16,368 nucleotides of DNA from Microbacteriaceae bacterium (GTDB lineage: Bacteria > Actinomycetota > Actinomycetes > Actinomycetales > Microbacteriaceae), in assembly GCA_009925875.1 (NCBI GenBank), contig RFQD01000010.1, forward strand, positions 1-16,368. Reading direction: 5' to 3'. Of this stretch, positions 4,758 to 6,854 are shown piece by piece; position 1 is the stretch's first letter, and each line of letters begins with the position of its first letter. A program made the translations under genes and the position numbers. A model generated the notes under the pieces. The model had not been told where the DNA came from and did not search any database. It was given only the letters and a program-made list of their open reading frames with translations.

Positions 4758-4849
4758 ATCGGCGGGGCTCCTTGGGGTGTTTGTGGTTCGTTGCGAGTGA
4801 GGTAACGTCGCTACGAGATTACCGAAAAGAACGAGGGCGGTGACCGAGG
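4758..4849. promoter_or_regulatory. Divergent gnd/gntK control region with interrupted dyad
   Basis: This 92-base gap must hold promoters for both directions. An interrupted dyad spans 4801-4823: outer arms GGTAA (4801-4805) and TTACC (4819-4823), inner arms TCG (4808-4810) and CGA (4814-4816), all about one centre at 4812. On the minus strand TAATCT (4820-4815) matches the actinobacterial TANNNT -10 form and lies in the right arm, with the gnd Shine-Dalgarno AAGGAG further down. On the plus strand TTGCGA (4791-4796) could be a -35 for gntK, but I see no good -10. An operator for a gluconate-responsive repressor is an inference; no such regulator gene is in the window. Confidence 0.45.
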
Positions 4850-5359
4850 GTGAAGGCAGCACCGGTCGTTGTGGTGATGGGACCTGCGGGGGCGGGTAAA
4901 TCCCTGATCGGCGCCGAGCTCGCGCGTGAACTGGGTATTGCGTTTCTCGACGCGGACACGCTGCATTCGGCGGCCGCTCGAGAGAAAATGGCCGCGGGTC
5001 AGGGGCTCACCGATGCCGATCGCGCACCGTGGCTCGAGCGCGTGTCGACGGTGTTGTCGGGCGCGTCAACATCTGGTGTGGGCCTCGTGCTCGCGTGTTC
5101 AGCACTCAAACGCTCCTACCGTGACCAGTTTCGCCTGGCGGCCCCAGACCTGTATGTCATCGAATTGGATGCGACGCCGGAAGTGTTGAGCGAACGACTG
5201 CGTTCCCGGTCGAGCCATTTTGTTACCGTCGACTTGTTGCCCTCGCAGTTAGAAGATCTGGAACCACTGGGCGCCGATGAACGCGGTGCGCGCATCGACT
5301 CCATGCGTGCACCGGCCGCGGTGGTGACCGACGCGATTCGTATCGTGCGCGCGGAGTGA
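4850..5359 (+). CDS. gntK: Gluconokinase
   Basis: GntK phosphorylates D-gluconate to 6-phosphogluconate with ATP, feeding the oxidative pentose phosphate pathway. The 169-residue length is typical. Motifs: Walker A GPAGAGKS (11-18); DADTLHSAAAREKMAAGQGL (34-53), equivalent to the family DGDxLHPxxNxxKMxxGxPL with the second D-x-D residue kept; TDADRAPWL; LACSALKRSYRDQFR; and HFVTVDLLPSQLEDLEPL near the C-terminus, matching the family HFMxxxLLxSQxxxLE. The GTG at 4850 is the only start that keeps the first beta-strand before the P-loop. A GAGG abuts it and ACGAGGG lies 12 bases upstream, so the ribosome site is not ideal. It is divergent from gnd, the next enzyme of the pathway, which strongly supports the assignment. 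Confidence 0.95.
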   Translation: MKAAPVVVVMGPAGAGKSLIGAELARELGIAFLDADTLHSAAAREKMAAGQGLTDADRAPWLERVSTVLSGASTSGVGLVLACSALKRSYRDQFRLAAPDLYVIELDATPEVLSERLRSRSSHFVTVDLLPSQLEDLEPLGADERGARIDSMRAPAAVVTDAIRIVRAE

Positions 5360-5361
5360 GC

Positions 5362-5367
5362 TAAACT
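5362..5367 (+). promoter_or_regulatory. Candidate -10 element for the rplY leader transcript
   Basis: TAAACT fits the TANNNT form of housekeeping -10 boxes in Actinobacteria and would place the transcript start near 5374, just ahead of the structured leader. No convincing -35 is seen at 16-18 bases upstream, so this is weak. Confidence 0.3.
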
Positions 5368-5390
5368 CGGAGGGAACTTCGGCGAGGGTG

Positions 5391-5436
5391 ACCGCGTTCG
5401 CGAAAGCGAAATTCGGTCGACCGTAATCGACGCGGT
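5391..5436 (+). ncRNA. Candidate three-way-junction RNA in the rplY leader
   Basis: The 46 bases can pair almost completely. P1 is ACCGCGT (5391-5397) with ACGCGGT (5430-5436), 7 perfect bp. P2 is TCGC (5398-5401) with GCGA (5406-5409), closed by a GAAA tetraloop (5402-5405), a GNRA type. P3 is ATTCGG (5411-5416) with CCG (5421-5423) and AAT (5425-5427), leaving T5424 bulged and TCGA as loop. Only A5410 and 5428-5429 are unpaired at the junction. The element lies upstream of rplY and downstream of a candidate -10. Its role as a regulatory leader domain is inferred; I do not recognise a named RNA family. Confidence 0.5.
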
Positions 5437-5457
5437 GGGATGACTTCTCTTTCGTGA

Positions 5458-5499
5458 GGTGGCGCCCCTCGTGCATGATGCCGGGGCACAAAGACCACC
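5458..5499 (+). promoter_or_regulatory. Nested stem in the rplY leader with alternative pairings
   Basis: GGTGG (5458-5462) pairs with CCACC (5495-5499) around an inner stem GCCCC (5464-5468) with GGGGC (5483-5487). Two alternatives compete. CGGTGG (5433-5438), which contains the 3' strand of P1 of the junction, can pair with CCACCG (5495-5500). TGGCG (5460-5464) can pair with CGCCA (5503-5507), which would free the start-codon hairpin downstream. Such mutually exclusive helices are typical of switching leaders. This is read by eye only. Confidence 0.4.
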
Positions 5500-5503
5500 G
5501 GAC

Positions 5504-5542
5504 GCCATTTGGCTCCGCAACGAAAAAAGGAGCCACCATGGC
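5504..5542 (+). promoter_or_regulatory. Hairpin sequestering the rplY ribosome-binding site and start codon
   Basis: The inner stem is TGGCTCC (5510-5516) with GGAGCCA (5529-5535), 7 perfect bp, around a 12-base A-rich loop. The outer stem is GCCAT (5504-5508) with ATGGC (5538-5542), 5 perfect bp, separated from the inner stem by a small internal loop (T5509 against CC 5536-5537). The Shine-Dalgarno GGAG (5529-5532) and the ATG (5538-5540) are both inside paired regions. Translation of rplY should therefore need the hairpin opened, by ribosome, protein, temperature or alternative pairing. Confidence 0.55.
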
Positions 5543-6257
5543 TGAAGAACTCGACAACAAGGTGCCCGCCGCGGTGCGCACCGAATTCGGCAAAGGGTTT
5601 GCACGCCGCCTCCGCGCAGCGGGTCAGATTCCGGCCGTCATCTACGGACACCAGTCGGAAACACGCCACGTGGCGTTGCCCGCCCACCAGGTCAGCCTGT
5701 TGTTGCGCAAGAAGAACGCCGTGCTCGACCTGCAAATTGACGGCAAGAGCCAGCTCGTGCTCGTCAAAGACGTGCAAAAAGACCCGGTGCACATGATCAT
5801 CGAGCACATCGACCTCGTTGAAATCATCAAGGGCGAGCAGGTTATTGTTGAGGTTCCCGTCCACGTGACAGGACACGCACTCTCGGGAACGATTGTGGAA
5901 CTCGATGTGAAGACCCTGCACCTGCAGGCCGAGGCGATGCACATTCCCGAGTTCGTCGAGGTGAGCATCGAAGGCGCCCGTCCAGGGTTCAAGGTGCACG
6001 TGGGTGACGTTACGCTCCCTCAGGGCGTCAGCGTCATCGGCGAAACCGACGGTCTGGTCGTGCACGTCCACGCCCCGCGCGGTGTTGACCTTGGCGAATC
6101 GGCGGAAGAACTCGCCGCCGAGTTGGCCGACGAGGCCGCACACGCCGAACACAAAGAAGAACTTCACCACGCTCAGCACGACGCCGAAAAGGCGGCCGCC
6201 GAGGCGGATGCCGAGCTTTCGGGCGCTGTTGCCGAAGCCGAAAAGGTCGTGGAGTAA
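5538..6257 (+). CDS. rplY: 50S ribosomal protein L25, long Ctc/TL5 form
   Basis: L25/Ctc binds 5S rRNA in the large subunit; in Bacillus the long form is a general stress protein. This 239-residue protein has the L25 domain first (about 1-95), with FGKGFARRLRAAGQIPAVIYG (17-37) and the segment from RKKNAVLDLQIDGK to VLVKDVQKDPVHMIIEHIDLVEI. The TL5-type C-terminal beta domain (about 96-182) follows, with VTGHALSGTIVELDVKTL, IPEFVEVSIEG and VGDVTLPQGV. The last ~55 residues are an acidic, Ala/Glu-rich, histidine-containing tail likely to be helical or disordered. The ATG is fixed by AAAAGGAG five bases upstream; a longer in-frame GTG at 5454 would translate the structured leader and is rejected. 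It heads rplY-pth-mfd. Confidence 0.96.
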   Translation: MAEELDNKVPAAVRTEFGKGFARRLRAAGQIPAVIYGHQSETRHVALPAHQVSLLLRKKNAVLDLQIDGKSQLVLVKDVQKDPVHMIIEHIDLVEIIKGEQVIVEVPVHVTGHALSGTIVELDVKTLHLQAEAMHIPEFVEVSIEGARPGFKVHVGDVTLPQGVSVIGETDGLVVHVHAPRGVDLGESAEELAAELADEAAHAEHKEELHHAQHDAEKAAAEADAELSGAVAEAEKVVE

Positions 6258-6263
6258 CAACTG
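6251..6263 (+). promoter_or_regulatory. Ribosome-binding site and CTG start of pth
   Basis: GGAG (6251-6254) sits at the very end of rplY. It is followed by the rplY stop TAA, then CAA, then CTG at 6261-6263, a 6-base spacer that is ideal for initiation. Between the stop and the conserved WLVVGLGNPG there is no in-frame ATG, GTG or TTG. The only other near-cognate codon, ACG at 6276, has no Shine-Dalgarno. Confidence 0.7.
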
Positions 6264-6854
6264 TCCTCCGACACCACGTGGCTCGTCGTCGGGCTCGGTA
6301 ACCCCGGGCCCGACTACGCCGCCCATCGCCATAACGTCGGCCAGATGGCGCTCGCGGTGCTGGCCGACGAACTGTCGGCGTCGTTCGTCTCTCACAAGGC
6401 CGGCGCGCAGGTGGCGACCGCGTTCACGTCGCCCGGTGGAGCGAAGCTCATCCTTGCGGCACCCCACACCTACATGAACGTCTCGGGCAAACCCACCGCA
6501 GCACTCCTCAAGTTTTTTTCGCTCACACCCGAGCGGCTCATCGTGGTGCACGATGAGCTCGACATCGATTTTGATCTTGTGCGCGTGAAATTTGGTGGAG
6601 GTCACGGCGGACACAACGGCCTGCGCGCCATCATCGCGGCACTGGGCACGAACGAGTTCGCGCGCGTGCGCATCGGTATCGGGCGACCACCCGGCCGGCA
6701 AGACTCGGCTGACTTCGTGCTGAGCGCGTTCAGTCGGGCACAGCGGGATGCCCTGCCCAACATCCTCGTCGACGCAGCTGACGCAACTCGCCTCATCGCG
6801 ACCGACGGGGTCCTCGCCGCACAACAAAAGTTCAACACCCGTTCACCCTCATAG
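6261..6854 (+). CDS. pth: Peptidyl-tRNA hydrolase, probable CTG start
   Basis: Pth cleaves peptidyl-tRNA released from stalled ribosomes and recycles the tRNA; it is essential in most bacteria. From the CTG the product has 197 residues, a normal length. Active-site residues correspond to E. coli N10, H20, D93 and N114: N14 in GLGNPG, H24 in AAHRHNVG, D98 in VVHDELDI and N119 in GHGGHNGLR. TYMNVSGKP and IGIGRPPG are also conserved. The first in-frame ATG (6345, residue 29) would remove both N14 and H24, so a longer protein is certain to be needed. The gene is in the same frame as rplY, one stop codon and one sense codon apart, and mfd follows after nine bases. Identity is secure; the start codon is the open point. 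Confidence 0.92.
   Translation: MSSDTTWLVVGLGNPGPDYAAHRHNVGQMALAVLADELSASFVSHKAGAQVATAFTSPGGAKLILAAPHTYMNVSGKPTAALLKFFSLTPERLIVVHDELDIDFDLVRVKFGGGHGGHNGLRAIIAALGTNEFARVRIGIGRPPGRQDSADFVLSAFSRAQRDALPNILVDAADATRLIATDGVLAAQQKFNTRSPS

Follow-up and report, generated by a model that had tools for sequence, protein, structure and literature searches.

A conserved structured leader RNA upstream of rplY in Microbacteriaceae and other families of the class Actinomycetes

Introduction

The mapping of ribosomal-protein leaders is well advanced for E. coli and Bacillus but has hardly covered actinobacteria. The leader of rplY, the gene for ribosomal protein bL25, was reportedly described by Aseev et al. 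in 2015 for E. coli and related gammaproteobacteria. According to the accessible text of the review PMC10931766 and of PMC7247131, E. coli bL25 represses its own translation, and a bL25 leader is described there only for E. coli and its relatives, in agreement with the first-pass annotation of the present DNA; PMC7247131 names the L25 leader for Enterobacteria only, and the rplY leader in the accessible part of PMC13245402 is given with a citation of the E. coli work. As portrayed in these sources, the gammaproteobacterial leader is a conserved structure in the rplY 5' UTR, an irregular single hairpin located before the ribosome binding site with a weak Shine-Dalgarno (SD) sequence (GAGA), and it serves the autogenous control of a short, one-domain bL25. 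In the same phylum, structured 5' UTRs are described for other single ribosomal-protein genes, among them the actinobacterial L31 and L17 leader candidates (PMC7247131) and rpsO of mycobacteria (PMC8470358), as far as the accessible text of these papers goes. No description of an actinobacterial rplY leader was found in open-licence PubMed Central, a scope outside which most subscription papers and all supplements fall, and the main text of PMC2864571 and PMC6429828 contains neither 'rplY' nor 'L25'.

The DNA analysed here, referred to as the window, is a stretch of 16,368 nucleotides from a Microbacteriaceae bacterium (GenBank assembly GCA_009925875.1, contig RFQD01000010.1). Its rplY leader, being conserved, structured and placed in the 5' UTR of a ribosomal-protein gene, agrees with the structural and positional part of the general definition of a ribosomal-protein leader. 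It shares its place upstream of the rplY ribosome binding site with the gammaproteobacterial leader as the accessible sources present it, but is multi-branched and lies at the predicted 5' end, further upstream of an SD of the AGGAG type, and it precedes a gene for a two-domain bL25; with a branched element in place of a single hairpin by a weak GAGA SD, it was not assigned to the gammaproteobacterial kind. From the actinobacterial L31, L17 and rpsO leaders, judged on the accessible text, it is set apart by its gene. No Rfam family matches it: the window has no gathering-level match in Rfam 15, in keeping with the first-pass annotation, which knew of no such leader in Actinobacteria, and the window and 26 further loci (the latter searched in evalue mode) gave only sub-gathering matches. 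We regard the rplY leader as a new family within an already known kind of RNA.

Features of the locus

The genome carrying the window has a size of 1.75 Mb, and the named records nearest to the window include Aurantimicrobium and other Microbacteriaceae. As the first-pass annotation had stated, gntK ends at position 5359 and is followed by rplY (5538..6257, plus strand) and then by pth. The rplY product is a two-domain bL25 (Ribosomal_L25p and Ribosomal_TL5_C in Pfam), and its ATG is preceded by AAGGAGCC with an AGGAG-type SD. A -10-like hexamer, TAAACT (5362..5367, plus strand), was read in the sequence, with a predicted transcript start at about 5373-5375. The pattern TANNNT stands 13-15 nt before the conserved block GGCGAGG in 136 of 165 leaders, compared with 22 of 2805 shifted control positions, and with a -10-like box at this fixed distance the closing stem of the leader starts where transcription is predicted to start. 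The gene downstream of rplY is pth in 122 of 125 loci and the upstream gene varies (prs in 50, gntK in 11; some genomes counted twice), so the RNA belongs to rplY, or to rplY-pth, and not to the upstream gene.

A location at the predicted 5' end would also suit a constitutive structure without a specific ligand, with a role in mRNA protection or processing or in the control of transcription elongation. We consider this improbable, since the invariant unpaired blocks found across the class exceed the needs of a plain stable hairpin. Within 4800-6500 two terminator-like sites were detected, both on the minus strand, so that none was found for the leader.

Structure of the leader

The first-pass annotation had drawn a compact 46-nt three-way junction at 5391-5436, from whose description (a 7-bp closing stem, a GAAA-capped 4-bp hairpin and a 6-bp hairpin with a bulged U) 17 pairs were reconstructed. 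The 46 bases are as quoted there and all 17 pairs are complementary in the window. As a functional unit the compact fold did not hold up, its minimum free energy of -17.5 comparing with a shuffled mean of -14.32 (z -1.29; 19/200 shuffles at least as good). It was also rejected as a conserved structure on its pair retention in a MAFFT alignment (A4) of the window with the two other genomes of the genus, L002 and L003, where it keeps 6/17 and 13/17 pairs, respectively, against 24/31 and 28/31 for the conserved fold described below. The drawn closing stem keeps 3/7 pairs in L002 and 6/7 in L003, and the third hairpin 2/6 and 3/6. The GAAA-capped hairpin is real in the window and in L003 (4/4 pairs) and keeps 1/4 pairs in L002, but is the tip of a longer hairpin (P2) and not a separate one; since 5430-5436 moreover belongs to the P3 element and the adjoining junction segment, the drawn stem competes with conserved pairs. 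It joins the variable arm of one hairpin to an invariant block belonging elsewhere, and disrupts P2, which covaries strongly across family and class. A three-way junction is present in the Microbacteriaceae form, between P0, P1 and P5 and not between the drawn helices. The location stood, in that a conserved, covarying element does lie in the rplY 5' UTR; the 46-nt fold is a wrong outline of it, and the true conserved element is larger and begins about 18 nt before 5391.

The conserved leader element extends over about 5373..5491 (plus strand), which is the extent of a match to covariance model R1 (24.6 bits, E 0.0024 over 99 sources; window outside the R1 seed). The leader region 5372-5560 has a folding z of -3.60, with 0/200 shuffles as good, and that a conserved structured leader exists at rplY is virtually certain. 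Its core has the order GGCGAGG, covarying hairpin P2 and CCGUNAUCGACG, enclosed by a long-range stem, and the upstream regions of rplY in relatives show a fixed order of blocks: ACUUCGGCGAGG, a variable hairpin, CCGUNAUCGACGCGGUG, a short variable hairpin, UUUCCUC, a further hairpin and UUCGAGU.

All helices described here are on the plus strand. The closing stem consists of P0 (5377 and 5379-5381 with 5482..5485) and P1 (GAGG, 5384..5387, within the invariant GGCGAGG at 5381-5387, with CCUC at 5467..5470), the P1 3' strand being placed by alignments A1 and A3 together with the three-genome pair check; 4/4 pairs of each helix are kept in the window, L002 and L003. The best-supported helix is hairpin P2 (5388..5421; 5388-5394 with 5414-5421, 5419 bulged), whose inner stem in the window pairs 5397-5401 with 5406-5410 around the GAAA loop at 5402-5405. 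It is followed by the P3 element CGUAAUCGACG (5422..5432), with a possible 3-bp stem (5422-5424 with 5430-5432) and the loop AAUCG, and by the junction segment CGGUGG (5433..5438). The latter is complementary to CCACCG at 5495-5500, which makes the two a candidate pseudoknot confined to the window's genus: both segments are identical in all three genomes, leaving no pair changes to judge by, and the complementarity was not seen in other Microbacteriaceae. Hairpin P4 (5443..5460; 5443-5447 with 5456-5460) covaries in the family and keeps 4/5 pairs in L002 and 3/5 in L003. P5, here in a short genus form (5473..5481; 5473-5475 with 5479-5481), has a third pair that varies yet holds in the three genomes (A-U, G-U and G-C), and together with P0 and P1 it forms the three-way junction.

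Covariation in the family was assessed in A1, a MAFFT alignment of 29 Microbacteriaceae leaders that was not fitted to the structure; 83 leaders could be segmented by script, 33 of these were compact and four near-identical ones were removed, so that the seeds favoured short loops. Paired cells made up 94.1% (86.9% shuffled), double changes numbered 45 (11.7 shuffled) and covariation was 0.218 (0.088 shuffled), with 0/500 shuffles reaching any of these values, and sliding the alignment out of register left 33-50% paired. In each of A1, A3 and A6, two-sided changes affect all six modelled pairs of P2. In A1 the same was seen for 3/4 pairs of P4, 1/4 of P5 and none of P0, P1 and P3, because these last three hardly vary in the family. 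Alignment A3 (81 leaders), which leans towards the model because it was fitted to it, gave 125 double changes compared with 28.0 in shuffles. In the class-wide alignment A6 (78 distinct rows, omitting most leaders of Microbacteriaceae and those with more than 42 nt between blocks) 84.8% of cells pair (68.5% shuffled) and covariation is 0.386 (0.124 shuffled; 0/500), the second P2 pair being A-U in 42 rows, U-A in 19, C-G in 7 and G-C in 4; pairs showing double changes number 6 (5.1 shuffled), which is unexceptional (48/500). P3 shows next to no variation, and 8/78 class-wide rows break its outer pair, so it is ranked as conserved sequence first and helix second: its sequence conservation is established, and the helix is a candidate.

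The class-wide alignment A5 aligned in the 5' half only, and the class-wide 3' strand of P1 therefore rests on a strand-swap test, in which the 5' strand of each leader was compared with strands from other groups for pairing with the leader's downstream region. The own 5' strand of the closing stem (P0 and P1) beat the swapped strands in 26/28 groups (Wilcoxon p 2e-7 over groups, 164 leaders); seven of the 28 (f3, f7, f10, f12, f14, f15, f18) had come in through R1 matches and hence were not blind. The exceptions were f40 and Microbacteriaceae (mean rank 0.78), and for the latter failure may be expected if P5 splits the closing stem.

Folding of isolated elements gave z values of 0.18 (L074), -0.30 (L182), -1.01 (L135), -2.22 (window) and -4.62 (L163). 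Unaided folding produced P1, P2 and P3-like and P4-like hairpins in L135, and P1 with P2 in L163; the full conserved fold was not recovered for L074, L182 or the window. The minimum free energy of the window element (-50.5) belongs to an alternative fold with P0 and P1 but without P2-P4, and the enforced conserved fold has -31.9. That the isolated elements are not always stable counts against the explanation preferred below.

In 65 leaders outside Microbacteriaceae the 3' end of the closing stem lies a median of 24 nt before the SD, and in 79 Microbacteriaceae leaders the stretch preceding the SD folds, with a mean z of -2.0 against mononucleotide shuffles. The fold of 5372-5560 has a possible stem over the SD of the window (5511..5534, plus strand; GGCUCC at 5511-5516 with GGAGCC at 5529-5534), which is present in L003 too and shortened to GGCU/AGCC in L002. 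A class-wide switch in which the 3' strand of P1 masks the SD once the closing stem opens was rejected and is very unlikely: the reduced leaders L090 and L105 do have, before and in P1, a U-rich strand complementary to the SD region, but across 65 leaders the own P1 3' strand pairs no better with its own SD than with swapped SDs (p 0.65).

Distribution and specificity for rplY

The core was found upstream of rplY in all 97 Microbacteriaceae leaders kept for analysis, using a loose pattern that occasionally matches by chance, which may account for one or two of the 97; rows L031-L035 and L043 had been excluded as near duplicates and L046-L047 as not actinobacterial. Some of these leaders are reduced (L085, L090, L105). 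In L090 and L105, both of genus g14, the reduction is strong, with P4, P5 and P0 apparently gone; L090 has GGCGAGG opposite CCUCGCC. The complement of UUUUCCUC, GAGGAAAA, lies at the SD.

Outside the family, 67 leaders of the class Actinomycetes were taken regardless of motif (27 best-scoring protein loci and 40 spread over families), and the core is present in 46 of them, representing 18 of 27 families. Some class members with short bL25 profile matches (L199-L203) carry it as well. It occurs upstream of L25 in none of 26 leaders from outside the class; the loose pattern matches somewhere in 4/26 out-of-class loci (90.5 kb), never upstream of L25, and is absent from the whole locus L216. The gene itself was present in 147/148 sampled genomes of the class, and, as a point against the explanation preferred below, the nine sampled families lacking the core do have rplY: the core is absent from all leaders checked in f32 (5), f33 (4), f34 (3), f23 and f29 (2 each) and f25, f30, f38 and f47 (1 each), and in f40 from 1/3. 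Genus g141 of f22 has a bL25 closest to 5v7q_V (E 1e-102), which we take to be from Mycobacterium tuberculosis. In f33, the core-less rplY leaders L177 and L178 share another block, GCGCUCGUAACGCCUUCCGCUAGGGCGGGUGAGGGGGAGCGC, directly after a -10-like box, which is possibly a second, unrelated rplY leader. Three families outside the class (f61, f68, f82) gave no bL25 profile match in the genomes sampled (2, 4 and 4 listed), and rplY may be lost there.

Searched over 119 genomes of the order, model R1 matched 26 at E<=0.001, all 26 with L25 directly downstream. Within the window's own genome the rplY leader ranks first (E 0.022), followed by a match at E 1.15, among five matches up to E 10. R1 missed L085 and matched L090 (E 0.051) and L045 (E 0.56) weakly. 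The core model R2, which has the window among its 79 seeds, was run over 246 genomes of the class; at E<=0.01 it matched 186, and 140 still matched at E<=1e-5, 45 of the latter newly drawn for that search. Over a phylum sample of 149 genomes, 11 matched at E<=1.2e-5, all from the window's class or order, and the best match elsewhere had 1.1e-4; matches between 1e-4 and 1e-2, inside and outside the class, look like background, and AT-rich f40 members score only in that range. The best R2 loci inspected from both searches were at L25 in 39/39 cases. Two second strong matches were taken as chance, one (G365 C50, L271; E 7.2e-7) within a nusA-like coding sequence and one (G423 C1) antisense to a long repetitive coding frame. 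The L271 match runs through codons for ...VIDAD....

This specificity bears on a further reading, that the leader is real and its ligand is not bL25 but a different factor of the ribosome or of its assembly, or else a small molecule, for example a nucleotide, with a riboswitch-like junction acting on rplY-pth. The strong conservation of unpaired segments, the constancy of pth behind rplY and the leader's lack of resemblance to the bL25 site on 5S rRNA would fit such a ligand. A riboswitch class usually controls several genes, and the inspected whole-genome matches (26 and 39) were all at rplY and none at other genes of one pathway; we therefore regard a ligand other than bL25 as unlikely, if less so than a structure without a ligand.

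Insights into function

The first-pass annotation had proposed that the leader mimics 5S rRNA, the ribosomal site of bL25. The two are alike as branched RNAs bound by bL25, provided that our reading of the leader holds. By sequence the mimicry is not borne out: the bacterial loop E signature is found in 0/165 leaders and in 11/12 of the stretches extracted as 5S, the remaining one, L279, being a faulty extraction that is not 5S. The words that leaders have in common with 5S do not exceed in length those of shuffled blocks, a comparison in which L279 stayed. Without a loop E signature in the leaders, there is no clear sign that bL25 would recognise them in its known mode; any mimicry would be in three dimensions only. 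That function resides in the drawn junction at 5391-5436, acting as such a mimic, is extremely improbable: 17 standard pairs can be drawn for it in the window, but it folds no better than many shuffles, loses most stem pairs in L002, breaks the covarying P2 and has no loop E signature.

The likeliest function of the leader, and one we consider probable from its position and by analogy with E. coli, is that free bL25 limits its own translation through it. The observations on which this builds are the sequence conservation, the covariation of P2 and of the closing stem, the place after a promoter-like box and the attachment to rplY. The mRNA would probably start at the 5' strand of the long-range closing stem (P0 and P1), which encloses the covarying P2, the almost invariant CGUNAUCGAC element (P3) and the short hairpin P4, with P5 inserted in Microbacteriaceae to give the three-way junction. 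Base pairing accounts only in part for the invariance of GGCGAGG and CGUNAUCGAC, and these segments are the likely recognition surface. Molecules of bL25 left free by 5S rRNA would bind the leader there and keep it folded at a distance of some tens of nucleotides upstream of the SD, which would reduce ribosome loading on rplY and perhaps also on the pth gene that follows.

More tentatively, at somewhat below even chances, the leader may be old, given its presence in 18 of the 27 other sampled families of Actinomycetes including mycobacteria, with the two-domain bL25 (or another partner) recognising an RNA unlike its ribosomal site.

Conclusions

A class-wide leader missing from Rfam would represent a sizeable family to annotate. 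It offers the two-domain bL25 a candidate control circuit, the known features being tied to species with short bL25 in the accessible text of a 2024 review, and raises the question of how a 5S-binding protein would recognise an RNA without loop E. If the more tentative reading above is true, this would be the first described control of a long bL25, possibly by recognition without rRNA mimicry.
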